In this document: piece after piece, positions 13,666 to 24,218 of the stretch
Position numbering within the stretch: the first letter of the stretch is position 1
How the letters are laid out: each line of letters opens with the position of its first letter
Origin: Parafrankia sp. EUN1f
GTDB taxonomy: Bacteria; Actinomycetota; Actinomycetes; Frankiales; Frankiaceae
Assembly (NCBI RefSeq): GCF_000177675.1
Contig: NZ_ADGX01000017.1
Coordinates: 1-64,000 of the forward strand
DNA length: 64,000 nucleotides
Direction: 5' to 3'
Program-made: the position numbers and the translations under genes
Notes under the pieces: model-generated
Databases searched by the model: none
What the model was told of the DNA's origin: nothing
What the model saw: only the letters and a program-made list of their open reading frames with translations

Positions 13666-14400
13666 TCAGGAAGGGGAGGAGGCCCCCACGCCGAGCCGGG
13701 CGAGGAGCTCGGCGCGCAGCTCGACGAACGCCGGGTCGGTCACGCTGCGCGGCCGCGGCAGCGTGACGTCCACGCTGTGCGAGATCACGCCGTCCTCCAT
13801 GACCAGCGCCCGGTCGGCGAGCAGCAACGCCTCCTCGACGTCGTGCGTGACCAGCAGGATCGCCGGGCGGTGCCGCTGCCACAGCTGCTCGACCAGGCTC
13901 TGCACGCGGATCCGGGTCAGGGCGTCGAGCGCGCCGAACGGCTCGTCGAGCAGCATCAGCTCGGGGTCGCGCACGAGCGCCCGGGCCAGCGACGCGCGCT
14001 GCGCCTCCCCGCCGGAGAGCGTCTTGGGCCAGGCGTCGGCACGGTGGGCCAGCCCGACCTCCTCCAGCGCCGCGAGTGCGCGGGCCCGGTCGGGCCGGCC
14101 CGGCAGGCCGAGCACGACGTTGCGCCACACCCGTTTCCAGGGCAGCAGCCGCGGCGACTGGAAGGCCACCGCGCGCCGGGACGCGATCCGGACCTCGCCG
14201 CTGATCTCGTTGTCGAGGTCGGCGAGGATCCGCAGCAGGGTGCTCTTGCCGCAGCCGCTGCGGCCGAGCAGGGTGACGAACTGCCCCGCCGGGACGGACA
14301 GGCTGAGGTCGTCGATGACCGTGGTGTCGCCGAAGGAGCGGCGCAGGTTGCGGACGACGACCGCGGGTGGGGCTTCGGTGCCCCCTCCGGTGGCGGTCAC
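13666..14400 (-). CDS. NitT/TauT-type ABC importer ATPase (SsuB-like)
   Basis: 244 residues from a GTG at 14400 that overlaps the permease stop (GTGA). An ATG at 14424 in frame is an alternative. Walker A is [20 protein letters not shown], signature LSGGEAQRASLARALV, Walker [17 protein letters not shown], and H-loop LLVTHDVEEALLLADRALVM. The Q-loop region AFQSPRLLPWKRVWRNV is typical of the nitrate/sulfonate/taurine family. It pairs with the permease at 14397-15368 and the divergent binding protein at 15836-16852. Confidence 0.92.
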   Translation of the reverse strand: MTATGGGTEAPPAVVVRNLRRSFGDTTVIDDLSLSVPAGQFVTLLGRSGCGKSTLLRILADLDNEISGEVRIASRRAVAFQSPRLLPWKRVWRNVVLGLPGRPDRARALAALEEVGLAHRADAWPKTLSGGEAQRASLARALVRDPELMLLDEPFGALDALTRIRVQSLVEQLWQRHRPAILLVTHDVEEALLLADRALVMEDGVISHSVDVTLPRPRSVTDPAFVELRAELLARLGVGASSPS

Positions 14401-15368
14401 GCTCCGCTGAAGGCCGGTCGCCATGACAGCAGCAGCCTTTCGAGTAGTCGGACGACGGCGTCGACGGCGAGCCCGAGAAGGGCGTAGACCACGAGGCAGA
14501 CGACGATGATGTCGGTGCGCTGGAACTCCTGGGCCCGGTTCATCAGGTGCCCCAGGCCCCGGTTGGCGTTGATCTGCTCGGCGAAGATGAGCGCGAGCCA
14601 CGCGATCCCGAGGGAGAACCGCAGACCGACCAGGACGTTCGGCAACGCCCCCGGCAGGATGACGTGCCGGATCAGCCCGGCCCGGCCGAGCCCCACCGTG
14701 CGCGCGGCCTCGACGAGGGTCGCGTCGACGTTCCGGATTCCGGCGTAGGTGTTGAGGTAGAGCGGGAACGCGACGCCGAAGGCGACGAGGGCGGTCTTCG
14801 GCCGCTCCCCGATGCCGAACCAGATGATGAAAAGCGGGATGAGGCCCACGAAGGGAACAGTGCGGATCATCTGGACGGCGGCGTCGATGAGGTCCTCACC
14901 GAGCCGGAAGAGCCCGGCCAGCAGCGCCAGCGTGATGCCGATGAAACCGCCCAGCAGCAGCCCGGTGCCGGCGCGCCGTAGCGATACCAGAATGGCCTTG
15001 GGAAGTTCACCGTTGCCCACCAGATCGGCGAACGTCGTTACCACTGTCCACGGCGAGGCGAGAAGTTCGGTGGACGCGCTGCCGGTCCACACCGCGATCT
15101 GCCATGCGGCCAGCAGACACAACGGTCCCACCGGACGTCGCACCCAACGGGGTACTCCCCGCCGCCGTGCACCGGCGGGCACGACGGTTGTCAGAACCGG
15201 CGCCACCTCGACCGGTGTTCCCTGTGCTCCGGTTGCTCCGGGTTCTCCGGATCTTCCCGGTGAATCAGTTTTCTCAGTGCCCTCGGGGGGCGTTCCGTTC
15301 TCGCCGTCCTTGCCGGCGGGAAAGGTCTGGATGGTCACGAATTCTCCCGTCGCGGGCGCACGAGTCAT
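14397..15368 (-). CDS. NitT/TauT-type ABC importer permease (SsuC-like)
   Basis: 323 residues. The first ~80 residues are hydrophilic and rich in G, P and E. TM segments start at LCLLAAWQIAVWTGSAS. The conserved NitT/TauT permease segment is present (IRTVPFVGLIPLFIIWFGIGERPKTALV), with the EAA loop LVEAARTVGLGRAGLIRHVILPGALPNVLVGLRFSLGIAWLALIFAE. It forms the membrane channel for the adjacent ATPase. Start ATG at 15368, 70 nt downstream of element E4. Confidence 0.92.
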   Translation of the reverse strand: MTRAPATGEFVTIQTFPAGKDGENGTPPEGTEKTDSPGRSGEPGATGAQGTPVEVAPVLTTVVPAGARRRGVPRWVRRPVGPLCLLAAWQIAVWTGSASTELLASPWTVVTTFADLVGNGELPKAILVSLRRAGTGLLLGGFIGITLALLAGLFRLGEDLIDAAVQMIRTVPFVGLIPLFIIWFGIGERPKTALVAFGVAFPLYLNTYAGIRNVDATLVEAARTVGLGRAGLIRHVILPGALPNVLVGLRFSLGIAWLALIFAEQINANRGLGHLMNRAQEFQRTDIIVVCLVVYALLGLAVDAVVRLLERLLLSWRPAFSGA

Positions 15369-15835
15369 CGCCGTGAAGAGCCGTCACGGTCGCCGGTGAG
15401 AACGGGAAAGAGAAAGGCGACGGCGGTAGCCGTCTCGGTGAGCCTTTTCCATCTCACGGTCCACGGGCACGGATGCCGCGGGTCCGAGTCGCCGATGGAA
15501 ATGCCTAGTCGTCGGCCCGGTGCCGTGGACATGCGGCGGACTTGATCCGCTGAAGGTCAATGTGACTCCGGGTAACCAGTTGCGCCGATCTGTACACGGG
15601 AGCAACCGAAACATGTCTGACGTGCCAGGTCAATGGGGATCAATGTGTGATGCAAGTCACTTCTTCACTTTTTAGATCGTCAAAGAAGCATTACGGACAG
15701 TTCTGTACTGTGCTCGGTGGGACGCAGCCGTGGTGAGGCTGAGCCGGTCTGTCATCGCCCTGTCACCAGGTCGCCCGGTCCGCTCTGGTGTGCTGCCCGT
15801 CCCAGCCCGATTTCCTGACCTCGGAGCGTTGTGCG
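15369..15835. other. Divergent promoter region between permease and binding-protein genes
   Basis: 467 bp without a gene. E4 occupies the permease-proximal part. The right half is unusually AT-rich for this genome (about 15640-15710), which fits promoters for the plus-strand binding-protein gene. I could not assign -35/-10 boxes with confidence. Confidence 0.5.
15439..15507 (-). repeat. 70-bp inverted-repeat element E4
   Basis: Minus strand: AGGCATTTCCATC then GGCG, interior GACTCGGACCCGCGGC, then CGTGA and GATGGAAAAGGCTCA. The inner 8-10 bp pair; the outer 5' arm has decayed. The interior closely matches E2. It lies 70 nt before the permease start. Confidence 0.8.
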
Positions 15836-16852
15836 ATGTTGCGCGTGTTCAGACTGCTCGGATCCCGGCTGCGGGTCGGCGTCGCGGCACTGGTGGCCGT
15901 CGTGGCTGTCGTGGCCGTCGCCGCCTGCGGGTCGGATTCCGACGACGGCCCGGCGGCTACGACAGCCACCGGGCGGCCCGACCTCTCCCGCGTGACCCTG
16001 CGGGTGGCCGACCAGGTCGGCCAGCTGAAGGCACTGCTCGAGGCCTCGGACGCCCTGGCGGGCGTCCCCTACAAGATCGAATGGTCTGACTTCTCCGCCG
16101 CCGCACCGCTGCTGCAGGCACTACGCGCCGGCGCGGCCGACATCGGGCAGGCCGGTGACGCGCCCATCCTCAACGCGCTCGGCGCCGGCGCGCCGCTGAA
16201 GGTCGTCGGGGCGACCCGTGCCTCCGCCAAGGGCGTCGCGATCCTCGTTCCCAAGGACTCGCCGATCCGTACCGTCGCAGACCTGCGTGGCAAGACGGTG
16301 TCCCCGTCGACCGAGGGCAGCATCGGGCACTACCTGCTGCTCGGCGCGCTCAAGGAGGCGGGGCTGACCCCCGACGACCTGACGATCTCGTTCCTGGCCC
16401 CGCCGGCGGCGTCGGCTGCCTTCGATGCCGGGCAGATCGACGCCTGGGTGACCTGGGATCCCTACGTCGCGCTCGCCGAACGCAAGGGCGCCCGCATCGT
16501 CCGCGACGGCGAGGGGATCAACAGCGGCCTGGGCTTCGTCGTAGCCACCGAGGACGCGGTCGAGGACGCGGGCACCAAGGCGGCGATCGCCGACTTCCTG
16601 ACCCGGCAGCGCAACGCGTTCACCTGGTCGAACCAGAAGCCGGAGGAGTTCTCGAAGATCTTCGCATCGCTGACGAAACTGCCCGAGCCGGTGGCCCTCG
16701 ACGTGGTCAAGCGCCGCCAGTGGAGCGCACCGCCGATCGACGACCAGATCGTCAGTCAGTTCCAGAAGACCGCCGACGTCTACGCCGAGGCCGGTGTGCT
16801 CGAGAAGAAGATCGACGTGAAGCCGTTCTTCGTCCGCTCCCTGACCTCCTGA
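15836..16852 (+). CDS. NitT/TauT-type ABC substrate-binding lipoprotein (SsuA-like)
   Basis: 338 residues. Signal peptide with lipobox VVAVAACGSD near residue 32. The NMT1/SsuA-like fold shows in LRVADQVGQLKALLEASDAL, LRAGAADIGQAGDAPILNALGAGAPLKVVG, AILVPKDSPIRTVADLRGKTVSPSTEGSIGHYLLLGALKEAGL and DAGQIDAWVTWDPYVALAERKGA. These are typical of aliphatic sulfonate binding proteins. The start was set at the ATG at 15836 because the signal peptide begins there and GGAG lies about 11 nt upstream. It is divergent from its permease and ATPase. Confidence 0.92.
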   Translation: MLRVFRLLGSRLRVGVAALVAVVAVVAVAACGSDSDDGPAATTATGRPDLSRVTLRVADQVGQLKALLEASDALAGVPYKIEWSDFSAAAPLLQALRAGAADIGQAGDAPILNALGAGAPLKVVGATRASAKGVAILVPKDSPIRTVADLRGKTVSPSTEGSIGHYLLLGALKEAGLTPDDLTISFLAPPAASAAFDAGQIDAWVTWDPYVALAERKGARIVRDGEGINSGLGFVVATEDAVEDAGTKAAIADFLTRQRNAFTWSNQKPEEFSKIFASLTKLPEPVALDVVKRRQWSAPPIDDQIVSQFQKTADVYAEAGVLEKKIDVKPFFVRSLTS

Positions 16853-17013: not shown

Positions 17014-18017
17014 TCAACCGGTGTGTGTGCAGCCGGAGACGAACTTGTCGAAGGGAAGGCTGTCGGCGCTGCCCAGGATGAGCTTGACGTTGGCGGACCA
17101 CTGGTCCGAGGTCACGGTGTCGGACCAGGCGGCGTGGACGCTGTCCCAGACCTGCTCGGCGACGGGGACGGGTACGTTCAGCAGGGTTCCGATGATCTTC
17201 GCCCCGGCGGTGCGGTTCGCGTTGTCCTGAAGCCAGCTGTTCGCCTGCGTCATGGCGGTGCAGAAGTTCTTCACCACCGCCGGGTGGCTCTCGCGGAACT
17301 TGGTGGTGGTCGACCAGAAGGACTGCAGACCCACCTTGCCGAGCTGGCCGGCGGTTCCCTGCAGCGAACCGGCGAGGACACGCAGGTCGATGCCGTGGGC
17401 TCCGGCCGCGGCGACCGCGTCGGAGGAGAAGACCGTCGCGTCGATCTGGTTGTGCCGTAGGGCCAGTTCCTGGCTGACCAGGTCACCGACGGCGACGAAG
17501 GTGACCTGGTCGGGCTTGATCCCGCCCGCCTGCAGAACGTACTGGGCGAACTTCTCGGTGAAGGCCCCGCGCGCGGTCACCCCGATCTTCTTGCCCACCA
17601 GTGCGTGGATGTCGGTGATTCCGCCGGTGGTGGGCGTGACCACCGCCATGTCGAGCCGGCCGAAGGGCGGCAGGGCGACGAGCGGTTCTCCCTGCTGCAT
17701 CGCGGGGAAGGCGTTGGGGGGACCGCGACGGCGATCTGGGTGGTACCCCCGATCAGCCCGGCCAGCAGTTCGGGACCGGACTTGGCCTTGACGGTCGTCA
17801 CGTTCAGGCCGGCGTCGCGGAAGAAGCCCTGCTCCTGGGCGACGGCGAACGGAAGGGTCAGCGCGCTGGTCGGGAAGTTTCCCACGGTGACGGTGGTGAG
17901 CGCGGCACTCGCATCGGCCTGGGTGGCGCTCGGGGTGGAGGAGCCGCATCCGAGCAGGCTGGTTCCCAGCGCGATCAGGCTGACAGCTACGAAGGCGGAC
18001 CGTCTCGCGATGTTCAT
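17014..18017 (-). pseudogene. NitT/TauT-type substrate-binding lipoprotein, interrupted by a frameshift
   Basis: The N-terminal part (ATG at 18017) has a signal peptide with lipobox ALGTSLLGCGSS and then VTVGNFPTSALTLPFAVAQEQGFFRDAGLNVTTVKAKSGPELLAGLIGGTTQIAVAV. The rest of the family fold continues in another frame from NAFPAMQQGEPLVALPPFGRLDMAVV to the stop at 17014. The switch falls at a run of six G (plus strand 17716-17721); one more base in that run would restore a single protein of about 335 residues. It may be a real mutation, slippage or a sequencing error. It is the only binding protein next to the ATPase and permease at 18.1-19.9 kb. Confidence 0.85.
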
Positions 18018-18122: not shown

Positions 18123-18992
18123 TCAGCCGATGCGTCCGCGGAGGTGCTGGTAGATCTCCTCGTAGCGGCGGTTCAGCGTGATCAGGGGCAGGTCCCTCGG
18201 CCGCTCGATGTCGACTTTCAGGTCCTCGACCACCCTCCCGCCGCCGATCACGACGACCCGGTCCGCGAGGGCGATGGCCTCGCCCAGGTCGTGGGTCACG
18301 AACAGCACGGTCCGGTGCTCCTCGCTCTGCCACAGGTCGACGAAGCGCTGCTGCACCGACTGCCGGGTGTTCATGTCCAGCGCGGCGAAGGGTTCGTCCA
18401 TCACCAGGATGTCGGGGTCGAGTGCCCAGGTACGGGCCAGCGCGACCCGCTGGCGCATGCCCTGCGAGAGCTGCCACGGCCACAGGCGCTCGGCGTGCCG
18501 CAAATGGACGGCGTCCAGCCAGTGCAGGGCTACAGACCGGCGTTCGGCCTTTGGGACGCCCCTTAGCTCGAGGCCGTACTCGACGTTGCGAAGGGCGCTG
18601 CGCCACGGCAGGAGAGCGTCGCGGGCCAGCATGAAGCCGAGGTGGGGCCGGGCGTCGCGGGGCCTGCGACCCATGACGGTCACGGAGCCGGATGTGGGAT
18701 CGACCAGACCGGCCACCATGTTCAGCAGGGTGGTCTTGCCGCTGCCGCTCCGGCCGACGAGCGCGGTGAACTCGCCCCTGGCAAGGCGGAGGTCGACTCC
18801 GTCGAGGACCTGCCGGGGCCGACCGCCGTTGGTCGAGTAGGTCATGCCCACGCCGTTGAAGGCGATGGCTTCGTCGATCTCGCGGGCCTCGCCGGGGGCT
18901 CGCCCGGCGTCCGCGGGGGCCGGCAGGGTGTGCGGCGTCATGGTCATCTCAGGGGCTCCAGCCGCGCTCGTCGCGGGTACCGGATCGCTCAT
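18123..18992 (-). CDS. NitT/TauT-type ABC importer ATPase (SsuB/TauB-like)
   Basis: 289 residues. Walker A LVGRSGSGKTTLLNMVAGLV, Walker B ILVMDEPFAALDMNTRQ, H-loop VLFVTHDLGEAIALADRVVVI. The signature is LSQGMRQRVALARTW, a Q replacing the second G of LSGGQ, a variant seen in this family. The ATG overlaps the permease stop (ATGA), so the two are coupled. It powers the importer whose binding protein is frameshifted just downstream. Confidence 0.92.
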   Translation of the reverse strand: MSDPVPATSAAGAPEMTMTPHTLPAPADAGRAPGEAREIDEAIAFNGVGMTYSTNGGRPRQVLDGVDLRLARGEFTALVGRSGSGKTTLLNMVAGLVDPTSGSVTVMGRRPRDARPHLGFMLARDALLPWRSALRNVEYGLELRGVPKAERRSVALHWLDAVHLRHAERLWPWQLSQGMRQRVALARTWALDPDILVMDEPFAALDMNTRQSVQQRFVDLWQSEEHRTVLFVTHDLGEAIALADRVVVIGGGRVVEDLKVDIERPRDLPLITLNRRYEEIYQHLRGRIG

Positions 18993-19939
18993 CGGTCGGC
19001 GGGCGGCTGCCAGCGGAGCAGTCGACGCTCGGCAAGGCCCATCAGCTGGTTCAGCGTGACGGCGACGAGCCCGAGCAGGAGCAGGATCCCGTACACCGCC
19101 TCCATCCGGAAGGTGGACGAGTAGTAGGCGATCAACTGGCCGAGCCCGTCGCGGGCGGAGATCAGCTCAGATCCCACCACCCCCAGCAGCGAGTAGATGA
19201 GCCCCAGCCGGAGCGCCGCGAAGATCGCCGGAGTGGCGACTGGAATCAGCACTTTCACGAACAGCTGGCGCTTCCCGGCGCCCAGCACCGTCGACAGCCG
19301 AAGCCACTCCGCGTCGGTCGAGCGGACGCCGGCTCGGGCCCCCGACAGCGCGATGAAGAACACCAGGGTCGAGGCCAGGGCCACCTTGGCCGATGTGTTG
19401 ATCCCGAGGGCGACGATGAACAGCGGCGCCAGGGCGATCCTCGGCATCGCGTTGGCCGCGTCGAGGTAAGGGGTCAGGACCCGCTCGACCCGGGGCGCCA
19501 GGCCCAGGGCCACACCGGCCACCGTCCCGGCCGCCCCGGCCAGCACCCACGCTGCCAGTACCGCTTTCAGGGTGGCCCTGGTGTTGCTCCACAACTCGCC
19601 GGACCCTGCCGCGTCGAACAGGTAGGACGCCGTCTGCCCGGGCGACCTGGCCAGCACGGGCTCGGGCCATCTGGCCGAGGCCGCGAGCTGCCAGAGTCCG
19701 AGCAGGAGGAGCCCCACCATGAGCTGGGCGCCGCGCACGATGAGCGTCTCACGTGACAGCAGGGACCGCCGCCGGCCGGCCCCGGTCGGCCCGATCACGT
19801 CCTCGCGCTCCTCCGGGGGCGCCAGGGAAGGTTCGTCGATGGTTCGCAAGTCCACTCCAGTCGGTTCTGCTTCGGTCGGACCGACCCCCACGGATGCGGC
19901 CTTTGCCCGGTTCTGGCGGCTGCGCGATCGACGACACAC
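18989..19939 (-). CDS. NitT/TauT-type ABC importer permease (SsuC/TauC-like)
   Basis: 316 residues. An N-tail of ~65 residues precedes TM1 (LMVGLLLLGLWQLAAS). The conserved region PYLDAANAMPRIALAPLFIVALGINTSAKVALASTLVFFIALS and the EAA loop LRLSTVLGAGKRQLFVKVLIPVATPAIFAALRLG mark the NitT/TauT permeases. The GTG at 19939 is the first start; a later start within the charged tail is possible. Its promoter region (19940-20031) holds two tandem 22-bp repeats, so transcription of permease-ATPase-binding protein is probably set by the AraC regulator next door. Confidence 0.9.
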   Translation of the reverse strand: MCRRSRSRQNRAKAASVGVGPTEAEPTGVDLRTIDEPSLAPPEEREDVIGPTGAGRRRSLLSRETLIVRGAQLMVGLLLLGLWQLAASARWPEPVLARSPGQTASYLFDAAGSGELWSNTRATLKAVLAAWVLAGAAGTVAGVALGLAPRVERVLTPYLDAANAMPRIALAPLFIVALGINTSAKVALASTLVFFIALSGARAGVRSTDAEWLRLSTVLGAGKRQLFVKVLIPVATPAIFAALRLGLIYSLLGVVGSELISARDGLGQLIAYYSSTFRMEAVYGILLLLGLVAVTLNQLMGLAERRLLRWQPPADR

Positions 19940-19956
19940 TATCGAGATCGTTTATT

Positions 19957-20000
19957 GTTCACTTATCCTGTCGGGACAGTTCACTTGCCTTGTCAGGACA
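19957..20000. promoter_or_regulatory. Two tandem 22-bp direct repeats upstream of the importer operon
   Basis: The repeats 19957-19978 and 19979-20000 abut exactly and match at 18 of 22 positions (both start GTTCACTT and end AGGACA or GGGACA). They lie 18 nt upstream of the permease start, between it and the AraC gene. Tandem direct repeats are the usual target of AraC-family proteins. A related pair in inverse orientation lies at 21074-21117. Confidence 0.7.
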
Positions 20001-20031
20001 TGGGAGCGCGACGTGAGGACCGGCGGACCCG

Positions 20032-21057
20032 TCACGGGGCCGGGGGATCCAGCCGCCCCTGGGTGGCTTTCCATGCGCTGGGGCTGCAGCCGTACTCGTT
20101 GCGGAACCAGCGGGAGAACCCGCTCGGCGCGGCGAAGCCCAGCAGCCGAGATATCTCGGTCAGCGAGTAGCGACCGTTGCGCAGGTGCTCTTCCGCCAGC
20201 TTGGCCCGTACCTGGTCGACCAGGGTGCTGAAGGACACGCCGAAGACATCCAGGTGGCGGTGCATGGTGCGGCGGTCCATCAGGAGGCCCTGGGCGATCT
20301 GGGTCGCCGAGCACCGGCCGGCGGGCAGGAAGAGCTCGATCATCGCGCGCACCTTCTCGACGATGGTCGCGTCTCTCGGCGCCCCGAGGGGCTTCAGCAG
20401 CTGGTGGGCGTAGGCCCGCAGATGCGGGTCGGACATCCGGTTCGGGGCATCAAGGTCCCTGCGGTGGAGCACGACCCCGCTGAATGGCTGCTCGAACCGC
20501 GGGATCAGGCCCAGAAACCGCTCGTAGACCTCGCAGTCGGCGGGAGCCGGATGAGCGAAGCATGCCGAGGCCGGCCGCCAGCCCGGACCCAGGAACTCGC
20601 GCAGGATCCCGTGCAGCGCGCCGACCGCCAGGTCATAGGACTGCTGGCAGGGGATGTCCTCCCCGAGGTCGAAGCCTACCGAGATGACGGCGATGTCGCT
20701 GCGTTCGCTCAGGTGCAGCCGTAACGCCTCGTTGTAGGTGTGTTCATAGCGGATCAACATGTCGACCGCGCTTCGCACGTCCGGTTCCTCGCGCAGGACA
20801 AGGCTCAGTGGCCCGAGGCTGGAGAACTGGCGGAGCTCGGCCAGCCTCATCCCGAACACCTCGCATCCCGACGCGGCGGCCGAGTTCTCCAGCAGCCCGA
20901 CGATGGACGCGGCGGGGATTCTCGTGTCCTGCATTGCCAGTCCGGACGGGTCGAGACCCACGTCGTGCATGAGCCGGGCGGCGTCGGCGCCGATCCCGAG
21001 GCTCTGGCACAGCTCCAGGTACCGGTTCAAAGAGGCGTAGCGGGCGGTCGGCTTCAC
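20032..21057 (-). CDS. AraC-family regulator with N-terminal arabinose-binding-like (PF12625-type) domain
   Basis: 341 residues. The N-terminal ~190 residues match the sensor half of OruR/ArgR-like AraC proteins (YLELCQSLGIGADAARLMHDVGLDPSGL, ASGCEVFGMRLAELRQFSSLGPLSLVLREEPDVRSAVDML). The C-terminus is a double HTH, including CSATQIAQGLLMDRRTMHRHL and YSLTEISRLLGFAAPSGFSRWFRNEYGCSPSAWK. Start GTG at 21057. It sits between the importer operon (-) and the catabolic operon (+), with 22-bp repeat pairs on both sides. It is the obvious local regulator; the inducer is unknown. Confidence 0.9.
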   Translation of the reverse strand: MKPTARYASLNRYLELCQSLGIGADAARLMHDVGLDPSGLAMQDTRIPAASIVGLLENSAAASGCEVFGMRLAELRQFSSLGPLSLVLREEPDVRSAVDMLIRYEHTYNEALRLHLSERSDIAVISVGFDLGEDIPCQQSYDLAVGALHGILREFLGPGWRPASACFAHPAPADCEVYERFLGLIPRFEQPFSGVVLHRRDLDAPNRMSDPHLRAYAHQLLKPLGAPRDATIVEKVRAMIELFLPAGRCSATQIAQGLLMDRRTMHRHLDVFGVSFSTLVDQVRAKLAEEHLRNGRYSLTEISRLLGFAAPSGFSRWFRNEYGCSPSAWKATQGRLDPPAP

Positions 21058-21073
21058 CGTGCGTATCCCCTGA

Positions 21074-21117
21074 TGTCCCGAAAGGATAAATAGGATGTCC
21101 CCGACAGAAAAGCATAA
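21074..21117. promoter_or_regulatory. Second pair of 22-bp repeats, between AraC and oxidoreductase genes
   Basis: TGTCCCGAAAGGATAA begins at 21074 and a second TGTCCC begins exactly 22 bp later at 21096. Both resemble the reverse complement of the 19957-20000 repeats (TGTCCCGACAGGATAAGTGA); the second copy fits better with a one-base shift. They lie 16 nt upstream of the AraC start and 62 nt upstream of the chosen oxidoreductase start, so they could control both. Confidence 0.6.
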
Positions 21118-21178: not shown

Positions 21179-22153
21179 TTGGCGAAGGCGGTCCGCTTCT
21201 ACCAGGCGGGAGATCCCGAGGTTCTGCGCTGGGAGGCCGCCGAGGTCGGCGACCCCGGCCCCGGCGAGGTCCGCATCCGCCACGAGGCCGTCGGGCTGAA
21301 CTTCGCCGACACCTACTTCCGCACCGGCCTGTACCCGGCGGAGCTCCCCGCTGGTCTGGGGGTCGAGGCCGCCGGGGTACTGGAAGCGGTCGGGCCCGGT
21401 GTGGACGGATTCTCGGTGGGCGACCGGGTCACCTACACCGGCAGCCCCCTCGGGGCCTACAGCACAGCACGGGTGATGCCGGCGGCGTCACTGATCGGAC
21501 TCCCGGACGGGATCACCTGTGAGACCGCGGCGGCCATGACCATGCGCGGGCTGACCAGCGCCTACCTCCTGCGGCGCATCCGCACGCTGCAGGCGGGGGA
21601 CACCGTGCTCCTGCACGCCGCCGCGGGCGGGGTCGGACTCATCTTCACCCAGTGGGCCCGACTGCTCGGGGTGAACGTGATCGGCACCGTGTCGAGTGAC
21701 GTGAAGGCCGCCGTCGCCCGCGCCCACGGGTGCACCGAGGTCATCGTCTACACCCGCGAGGACGTTCCCTCGCGGGTCCGGGAGCTGACCGACGGCGCAG
21801 GGGTGCCGGTCGTCTACGACAGCATCGGCAGGACCACCTTCGCCGGCTCTCTCGACGCACTGGCCCGCCGGGGCCTGCTGGTCTGCTTCGGTACGGCATC
21901 CGGCCCTGTTCCGCCGATCAACGCCATGGACCTGGCCGTCAGGGGCTCCCTGTTCGTCACCCGGCCGGCTCTGGCCGATTACATCGCTGATCCGGCCGAG
22001 CGCGCGGAGCTGGCCCAGGAGCTGTTCGACCACGTCCTCGCGGGACGGATCCGCATCGAGATCAACCAGCGGTACGCGCTGCAGGACGCCGCGCGAGCCC
22101 ATCGCGACCTGGAGCGCGGCCGGACCATCGGGTCGTCGGTCCTGTGTCCCTGA
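21179..22153 (+). CDS. Zinc-free quinone oxidoreductase / enoyl reductase (MDR family, QOR type)
   Basis: 324 residues from TTG at 21179, the normal length of QOR proteins. I prefer this start over the upstream ATG at 21095 because AGGAG lies 8 nt before it and the family N-terminus begins at KAVRFYQAGDPEVLRWE; the ATG would also fall inside the operator repeats. The NADPH site is LLHAAAGGVGLIFTQWARLLG. The conserved VGLNFADTYFRTGLYP is present, and there are no zinc-ligand cysteines. It reduces a C=C or quinone with NADPH. It is the first gene of a probable three-gene operon with TauD and BKACE. Confidence 0.88.
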   Translation: MAKAVRFYQAGDPEVLRWEAAEVGDPGPGEVRIRHEAVGLNFADTYFRTGLYPAELPAGLGVEAAGVLEAVGPGVDGFSVGDRVTYTGSPLGAYSTARVMPAASLIGLPDGITCETAAAMTMRGLTSAYLLRRIRTLQAGDTVLLHAAAGGVGLIFTQWARLLGVNVIGTVSSDVKAAVARAHGCTEVIVYTREDVPSRVRELTDGAGVPVVYDSIGRTTFAGSLDALARRGLLVCFGTASGPVPPINAMDLAVRGSLFVTRPALADYIADPAERAELAQELFDHVLAGRIRIEINQRYALQDAARAHRDLERGRTIGSSVLCP

Positions 22154-22221: not shown

Positions 22222-23124
22222 GTGCACCGCACGACCACCGAAGCCGAACAGTCTTCGGGAACCGGTGCAAGGTCGATGACGGTCACCCGGCTCACCTCAT
22301 CCCTCGGAGCCGAGCTGTCAGGCGTGGACCTGGCCGACGTCGCGCGCAGCGACGTGTTGTTCGCCGGGCTGCGGGCGCTGCTACTGGAGCACAAGGTGCT
22401 GTTCCTGCGTGATCAGGACATCAGCCGGGCGGACCATGTGGCACTGGCCCGGCGGTTCGGCTCGCTGGAGGATCACCCGGTGGCCCCGAGCGACCCGGAC
22501 CACCCGGGGCTCGTGCGCATCTACAAGTCCGAGGACAGCGCGCCCGAGCACTACGAGAACAGCTACCACTGCGACGGGTCGTGGCGGCGGGAACCGGCCA
22601 TGGGGGCCGTGCTGCGCTGCGTCCAGACCCCTTCGGTGGGCGGCGACACGATCTGGGTGAACATGGCCGCCGCCTACGAGGGCCTACCCGATCACGTGAA
22701 GGAGCGGATCGCCGGGCTACGGGCGCGCCACAGCATCGAGGCCACGTTCGGGGCCCGCCTGCCCGTCGCGGAGCGCCACCGGCTCAAGGAGCGCTATCCC
22801 GACGCCGAGCATCCGGTGGTCCGTACTCACCCCGAGACCGGGGAGAAGATCCTCTTCGTCAACGCCTTCACCACCCACATCGTCAACTACCACACCCCCG
22901 TGAACGTCCGTTACGGCGCCGACTACGCGCCGGGCGCCAGTCTGCTTCTCAACTACCTGATCGGCCGGGCGGCCATTCCTGAATACCAGGTGCGTTGGCG
23001 CTGGAGCGCTGACAGCTTCGCCATCTGGGACAATCGTGCCACCCAGCACTACGCCGTCCAGGACTACTGGCCGGCCGGCAGGAGGATGGAGCGCGCCGGA
23101 ATAGTCGGCGACCAGCCCTTCTAG
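22222..23124 (+). CDS. TauD/TfdA-family Fe(II)/2-oxoglutarate dioxygenase
   Basis: 300 residues. The facial triad is readable: H116 and D118 (NSYHCDGSW) and H276 (NRATQHYAV), with arginines at 287-291 (AGRRMERAG) that would bind 2-oxoglutarate. The family motif HPVVRTHPETGEKILFVN lies near 197. Such enzymes hydroxylate taurine, alkylsulfonates, phenoxyacetates or similar; an alpha-hydroxylated sulfonate collapses to an aldehyde and sulfite. The neighbouring sulfonate-type importer supports a sulfonate substrate (inference). The GTG at 22222 has GGAGG about 7 nt upstream. It is followed 41 nt later by the BKACE gene. Confidence 0.9.
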   Translation: MHRTTTEAEQSSGTGARSMTVTRLTSSLGAELSGVDLADVARSDVLFAGLRALLLEHKVLFLRDQDISRADHVALARRFGSLEDHPVAPSDPDHPGLVRIYKSEDSAPEHYENSYHCDGSWRREPAMGAVLRCVQTPSVGGDTIWVNMAAAYEGLPDHVKERIAGLRARHSIEATFGARLPVAERHRLKERYPDAEHPVVRTHPETGEKILFVNAFTTHIVNYHTPVNVRYGADYAPGASLLLNYLIGRAAIPEYQVRWRWSADSFAIWDNRATQHYAVQDYWPAGRRMERAGIVGDQPF

Positions 23125-23165
23125 CGCTCGGCTCCAGCGGGGCGATGCTGATTGGAGATCCTCCG

Positions 23166-24218
23166 ATGCACTTTCTCGATGATTCCCTTTTTCCGGAGAA
23201 CCAGGAGCCGCTGGTAATCACCGCCGCCCCGTACGGCCCGGAATGGGAGCCGGCCGACTTTCCCGAGGACATCCCGGTGACGCTGGACCAGCACGTCCAG
23301 GCCGCGGTCGACTGCTACAACGCCGGGGCCACCGTGCTCCACATCCATGTCCGCGAGCTGGATGGCAGGGGATCGAAGCGCCTGTCGATGTTCAACCAGC
23401 TCCTGGCCCGGCTGCGCGACGCCGTCCCCGAGATGATCCTCCAGGTCGGCGGGTCCATCTCGTTCTCGCCGGAAAGCGAGGGAGACGCGGCCAGGTGGCT
23501 CAGCGACGACACCCGCCACCTGCTGGCCGATCTCGATCCCCGCCCCGACCAGGTGACCATCGCCATCAACACCAACCAGATGAACGTGGTCGAGTTGATG
23601 ACCGCCGACGACATCCGGGGGACGTCATTCGAGCGTCCCGCCGTCTACGACGCCTTCCGGGAGATGTACGTCCCGGCCGGCCCGGGCTGGGTCGACGAGC
23701 ACCTGCGCCGGTTGCAGGCGAACGGCATCCAGCCGCACTTCCAGCTGGCGAACATCGCCCAGCTCGAGACCGTGGAGCGGATCATCCGCCGGGGCGTGTA
23801 CACCGGCCCGCTGAACGTCACCTGGGTGGCCATCGGGGGCGGCTTCGACGGCCCCGGGCCCTACAACATGATGGAGTTCGTCCGGCGGGTTCCCGACGGC
23901 GCCTCCCTCACCCTCGAGGCGCTGATGCGCACCGTGCTGCCGATCAACACCATCGCCATCGCCCTGGGCCTGCACGCCCGCTGCGGGAACGAGGACAACC
24001 TGTGGGGCCACAGGGGGGAGAAGATCACCACTGTCCGGCAGGTGGAGCAGCTCGTCCGCATCGCCGGCGAGCTGGGCCGGTCGGTCGCCGGAGGCAAGGA
24101 GGCCCGCGAGGTGTACAGGCTGGGCGAGACGTACAGCAGTGCCGAGGAGACCCTGGCGAAGCTGGGTTTCCCGCCCGATCGCAGGCCCGGGCAGCGCGGC
24201 TTCACCTTCCACGCCTGA
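23166..24218 (+). CDS. Beta-keto acid cleavage enzyme (BKACE / DUF849, Kce-like)
   Basis: 350 residues from the ATG at 23166, preceded by GGAG; an ATG at 23145 is less likely. The (beta/alpha)8 barrel family shows in VITAAPYGP, then TVLHIHVRE with the zinc-binding H59-x-H61, MILQVGGSISF, and the C-terminal GLHARCGNEDNLW with the conserved glutamate. The founding member converts 3-keto-5-aminohexanoate plus acetyl-CoA to acetoacetate plus a CoA ester; other members use different beta-keto acids. The substrate here is unknown. Placed after TauD and QOR, it probably handles a later carbon-chain step of the same pathway. Confidence 0.9.
   Translation: MHFLDDSLFPENQEPLVITAAPYGPEWEPADFPEDIPVTLDQHVQAAVDCYNAGATVLHIHVRELDGRGSKRLSMFNQLLARLRDAVPEMILQVGGSISFSPESEGDAARWLSDDTRHLLADLDPRPDQVTIAINTNQMNVVELMTADDIRGTSFERPAVYDAFREMYVPAGPGWVDEHLRRLQANGIQPHFQLANIAQLETVERIIRRGVYTGPLNVTWVAIGGGFDGPGPYNMMEFVRRVPDGASLTLEALMRTVLPINTIAIALGLHARCGNEDNLWGHRGEKITTVRQVEQLVRIAGELGRSVAGGKEAREVYRLGETYSSAEETLAKLGFPPDRRPGQRGFTFHA

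Follow-up and report, generated by a model that had tools for sequence, protein, structure and literature searches.

Tandem 22-bp repeats on both sides of an AraC-family gene in Parafrankia sp. EUN1f as probable operators of outward-facing promoters

In Parafrankia sp. EUN1f, a gene for an AraC-family regulator lies between an ABC importer operon, read leftward, and an operon for a quinone-oxidoreductase-like protein (QOR), a TauD/TfdA-family dioxygenase (TauD) and a beta-keto acid cleavage enzyme (BKACE), read rightward, and between the regulator gene and each of these operons stands a tandem pair of short repeats. The locus thereby poses a simple question: are these repeats the sites through which the regulator controls its neighbors and, if so, which of the neighbors does each pair serve? 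The original prediction, made from the sequence of the locus, held that they are AraC operators. Here, we follow the repeats through the window (the whole 64,000-nt stretch of contig NZ_ADGX01000017.1 that was analysed), the 9.35-Mb genome to which it belongs, and a set of 351 genomes.

The repeats and their genomic setting

Inspection of the sequence located two tandem pairs of 22-bp units, one on each side of araC and in mutually opposite orientation, exactly at the predicted coordinates and with exactly the predicted 22-bp period. The left pair (19957-20000) is read on the minus strand from 20000 and the right pair (21074-21117) on the plus strand from 21074. The relevant features of the locus are as follows.

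17014-18017, minus strand: NMT1-like solute-binding protein gene, frameshifted, with a break near the G-run at about 17700-17725
18123-18992, minus strand: ABC ATPase, taurine/nitrate/sulfonate type
18989-19855, minus strand: ABC permease (BPD_transp_1), first importer gene; probable start GTG 19855 or TTG 19849
19936-19941, minus strand: predicted -10 element of the importer promoter, TAGTGT, spaced 20 bp from the AAG in the downstream half-site
19957-19978, minus strand: left operator, downstream half-site, TGTCCCGACAGGATAAGTGAAC; core predicted at about -49 to -33, overlapping the -35 position
19979-20000, minus strand: left operator, upstream half-site, TGTCCTGACAAGGCAAGTGAAC; predicted at about -71 to -50
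20032-21057, minus strand: AraC-family regulator, 341 aa, GTG start; Arabinose_bd (PF12625) and HTH_18 (PF12833)
21074-21095, plus strand: right operator, upstream half-site, TGTCCCGAAAGGATAAATAGGA
21096-21117, plus strand: right operator, downstream half-site, TGTCCCCGACAGAAAAGCATAA
21134-21139, plus strand: predicted -10 element of the QOR promoter, TACGGT, spaced 21 bp from the AAG in the downstream half-site
21179-22153, plus strand: QOR, quinone-oxidoreductase-like MDR protein; TTG at 21179, preceded by AGGAGA, is the likely start
22222-23124, plus strand: TauD/TfdA-family dioxygenase
23145-24218, plus strand: BKACE, beta-keto acid cleavage enzyme (PF05853)

A core common to all units, TGTCCCGACAGGATAA, had also been proposed; the core is exact at 19963-19978 only and carries one mismatch at 21074-21089, while the remaining two units are more divergent, the weakest of the four being the right downstream unit, which by eye agrees with its neighbor at 13/22 positions. 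With up to three mismatches allowed, the core has three matches in the window against 0.19 expected, a number reached in none of 100 shuffles. At the scale of the 9.35-Mb genome, the paired pattern TGTCN6RGNNAA-N4..8-TGTCN6RGNNAA has two matches, which are the two sites of the window, and its reversed control has none. The left and right operators are identical at 24/44 bases, whereas each shares 31-33/44 with the operators of orthologous loci described below, and we therefore rejected the idea that one site is a recent local duplicate of the other.

The protein encoded between the pairs carries the N-terminal PF12625 domain (147.3 bits vs a gathering score of 27.6) and a C-terminal double helix-turn-helix HTH_18 domain (59.0 bits vs 33.6). 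Its best NCBIfam model is that of QhpR (NF049968), and the score of 176.1 bits falls short of the family cutoff of 250, so that an assignment as a QhpR equivalog was rejected; the regulator's locus has no recognisable genes for a quinohemoprotein amine dehydrogenase. To the left, the solute-binding protein gene owes its frameshift either to an error in the assembly or to recent inactivation. Next to this importer, at 13666-16852, lies another ABC system of the sulfonate/taurine type, with a permease, an ATPase and an SsuA-type binding protein; it has no operator of the 22-bp tandem type.

Conservation and co-occurrence with the regulator

In a different family of the same class the regulator is common, with orthologs in 77 of the 351 genomes. 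Within the order of Parafrankia itself, neither the regulator nor the TauD gene is present in any of the 34 other genomes that were sampled, which suggests that the cluster was probably acquired laterally. At the 46 loci compared, most araC genes are divergent from QOR-TauD-BKACE operons; the identity of the encoded proteins to their window counterparts is mostly 70-81%. Directly upstream of nearly all ortholog araC genes, TGTC units stand in tandem, repeating every 22 bp. Forty distinct operators, taken from upstream of AraC orthologs whose identity is about 44-58% (in Mycobacteriaceae-type genomes, Actinoplanes and others), align without gaps to TGTCCCGAAATGAnnAGnnnnnTGTCCCGTnAGGATAAGCAT, with the same period and nine invariant columns; each unit conserves TGTCCC at positions 1-6, then G12 and A15-G17. 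The original prediction had made its case dependent on conservation of the repeats next to orthologous clusters, and tandem 22-bp operators indeed stand beside about 40 orthologous AraC genes.

From these 40 operators we built a sequence-only model, R1, leaving out the two window sites as well as the -10 columns. A genome scan had been proposed as a route to further targets, and in the window's genome R1 picks exactly the two known sites: the right site at an E-value of 1.8e-5 and the left, with a modest score of 23 bits, at 6e-4. The next match, at 0.19 (C223), is weak and by appearance lies in coding sequence; we rejected it as a true site and treat it as chance. In five congeneric genomes lacking a close AraC ortholog, no R1 match had an E-value better than 0.087, and the best of these (in G002 and G004) are weak. 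Over the 351 genomes, motif and AraC ortholog occur together in 73, the motif alone in 2, AraC alone in 4 and neither in 272; outside the training set of R1 the corresponding counts are 39, 2 and 4, although the genomes are related and the counts are thus not independent events. Among the 116 motif matches in this set, 97 adjoin an araC ortholog, 76 on its 5' side and 21 on its 3' side; every one of the 97 points away from the gene, and 20 araC genes have operators on both sides, as in the window. Conservation beside orthologs, the genome-wide specificity of R1 and the co-occurrence of motif with regulator together support the assignment of the repeats as AraC operators.

Promoter layout, proposed mechanism and alternatives

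Downstream of the paired units, the first 40 operators share a TANNNT element at positions 60-65, mostly TACTGT, placed 20 bp beyond the second unit's AAG. Every training site (40/40) and every held-out site (37/37, among them the window's two) has a TANNNT starting at position 59-61, and elsewhere in positions 40-107 of the held-out sites the element is nearly absent; the -10 element of the right window site is 1 bp farther than usual. Counted from this element, one half-site core spans about -71 to -55 and the other about -49 to -33; no recognisable -35 hexamer is present, AAGCAT or a similar sequence standing in its place. These sites thus combine 22-bp direct repeats of two boxes each, a downstream repeat at -35 and a fixed -10 spacing, and we predict that the window sites have the layout of class-II activator promoters, with the second half-site replacing the -35 hexamer and transcription starting near 19929 (minus strand) and 21146 (plus strand). 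Given these predicted starts, the longest open reading frames of the two flanking operons begin too early: that of the permease opens at GTG 19939, within the predicted -10 element, and that of QOR at ATG 21095, within the operator, and the QOR orthologs begin MAKAIRFYE.... Of the 40 ortholog promoters, 25 (L022, L024 and L072 among them) carry CATCAC at the predicted start point, its first base lying exactly 12 bases downstream of that of the -10 element; the motif was seen in neither of the two window promoters.

The computed features, namely the sites themselves, their uniqueness in the genome, their conservation, their polarity, the fixed -10 spacing and the co-occurrence with the regulator, are best explained if the repeats are, as is very probable, binding sites of the AraC protein encoded between them, set within outward-facing, activator-dependent promoters. 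One 22-bp unit would represent one half-site. Its box A (TGTCCC) and its box B (around G12 and AAG15-17), spaced by one helical turn, would each match a helix-turn-helix motif of the same AraC subunit, and two subunits would bind head to tail on the tandem pair. The downstream half-site, ending at about -33, would stand in for a -35 hexamer, with the TANNNT -10 element 20-21 bp on. An inducer-bound AraC dimer would then recruit RNA polymerase leftward to the ABC importer and rightward to QOR-TauD-BKACE, and its action at both promoters would switch on uptake and breakdown of one compound together. Binding by the protein and the involvement of an inducer are both part of what we infer here, as is activation rather than repression, for which the position of the sites and the missing -35 hexamer argue.

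Which genes the right pair serves had been answered as both araC and QOR-TauD-BKACE. The QOR side of this claim stands, since the sites are directional modules that point away from araC and carry a fixed -10 element, while control of araC is less certain. Autoregulation is plausible because the right site lies only 16 bp from the araC start codon, and in most orthologs an operator is situated 9-50 bp upstream of araC; however, two loci (L078 and L081) have none there and one (L071) has one unit only, and since several genomes keep the site with the target operon rather than with araC, autoregulation would be the weaker part of the operator claim.

Three other readings of the repeats deserve consideration. 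It is unlikely that the regulator is mainly a repressor that blocks its promoters until the inducer arrives. The downstream half-site does overlap the -35 position, so that bound protein lacking polymerase contact would block the promoter, and the proximity of the right site to the araC start codon may allow repression of araC; yet a recognisable -35 hexamer is missing, with AAGCAT or similar found in its stead, and both position and head-to-tail orientation match the known activators XylS and CphR. Assignment of the sites to another regulator, whether an AraC paralog or a global factor travelling with the cluster, is less likely again, and indeed very improbable. Paralogous AraC proteins of about 40-50% identity do have related 22-bp tandem sites, making cross-recognition conceivable, and the CATCAC motif at the predicted start point of many ortholog promoters is a second conserved element; but the sites of the paralogs have a different box A or box B, the motif and the AraC ortholog keep company genome by genome, and congeners with many other AraC proteins but without this one also lack the motif.

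The third reading, by which the repeats would not be operators but would delimit a mobile cassette of IS or MITE-like type with araC inside, draws on their mutually inverted arrangement about 1.1 kb apart and on the absence of the cluster from the 34 other genomes of the order, which suggests lateral acquisition. We consider it barely credible, and rejected it: the units are doubled in tandem with a -10 element at a fixed distance, the same sites accompany displaced QOR and MFS operons with no araC between them, and the left and right operators resemble each other less than either resembles the ortholog operators. No empty site showing precise excision at the repeats was seen. Binding of the regulator to the repeats, with activation outward, thus continues to be the preferred explanation.

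Known systems and further members of the regulon

The closest parallels to the predicted layout come from proteobacterial and rhodococcal activators. At the Pm promoter of Pseudomonas putida, XylS recognises 15-bp direct repeats composed of box A (TGCA), 6 bp and box B (GGTA), with one subunit per repeat and an activator site that abuts the RNA polymerase site (PMC5481539); the resemblance to the window is one of layout, and box sequences, period and host phylum differ. In Rhodococcus sp. YH-5B, CphR acts at the cphA2A1 promoter, where two direct repeats lie at -35 to -49 and -55 to -69 (PMC6205950). As in the window, there are two tandem imperfect direct repeats with two boxes per repeat and a divergent target operon (PMC6205950), but the CphR boxes are TGCA and GGNTA at a period of about 20 bp, compared with TGTCCC and (A/G)GGATAAG at 22 bp in the window operators, and the CphR pathway, 4-chlorophenol oxidation, differs from that of the window; the likeness drawn here is one of site layout. 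GliR (PA3027) of Pseudomonas aeruginosa, the second-best NCBIfam model for the window regulator and, like QhpR, below cutoff, is likewise an AraC-type regulator with a divergent target operon and a site over the -35 region (PMC8151288), whereas its motifs, YYGGCGHTDTYSGMC and GGAYAWCGCCG, are unlike the window operators (PMC8151288). Literature on QhpR, on BKACE/TauD with AraC and on TGTC-type AraC operators yielded nothing on the regulation of QOR-TauD-BKACE.

The 44-bp operator with its fixed -10 element supplies a concrete regulon signal for a widespread actinobacterial catabolic operon. QOR operons lying away from araC retain their own site at three loci (L071, L089 and L090). Elsewhere the site is oriented toward MFS transporters, acyl-CoA dehydrogenase, BKACE and second TauD-family genes, and also toward a CMD-family gene with MFS and CoA-transferase genes behind it. 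Transport and catabolism under one operator are therefore usual. Because it connects, in different genera, transporters, CoA transferases, the CMD-family protein and further genes with the pathway, the signal narrows the search for the substrate; it also helps to place the real start codons of QOR and the permease, and would offer an inducible promoter for actinobacteria.

An ABC importer of the window's type was found under this operator at no other examined locus, the transporters there being of the MFS type, and on this comparison the importer is an unusual choice. Homologs of the window's permease and ATPase do occur divergent from a paralogous AraC at two loci, L098 (in genome G240) and L021; those of G240 are 54/50% identical to the window's proteins, and the paralog operator consists of 22-bp tandem CGTCAAG repeats with TACTGT at the same -10 spacing. 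The pairing of this importer type with a paralogous AraC and a different operator in G240, and of MFS transporters with the operator in other actinobacteria, leads us to suggest, tentatively and as somewhat less than an even chance, that the operator is a portable promoter module and that here the ABC importer joined the QOR-TauD-BKACE regulator by acquiring an outward-facing copy; if so, a transporter was swapped while the regulatory signal was kept. In large Rhodococcus-type genomes (L110-L114), the operator and its -10 element also lie upstream of a region with a PAS-like open reading frame and a cytochrome P450, a possible further member of the regulon.
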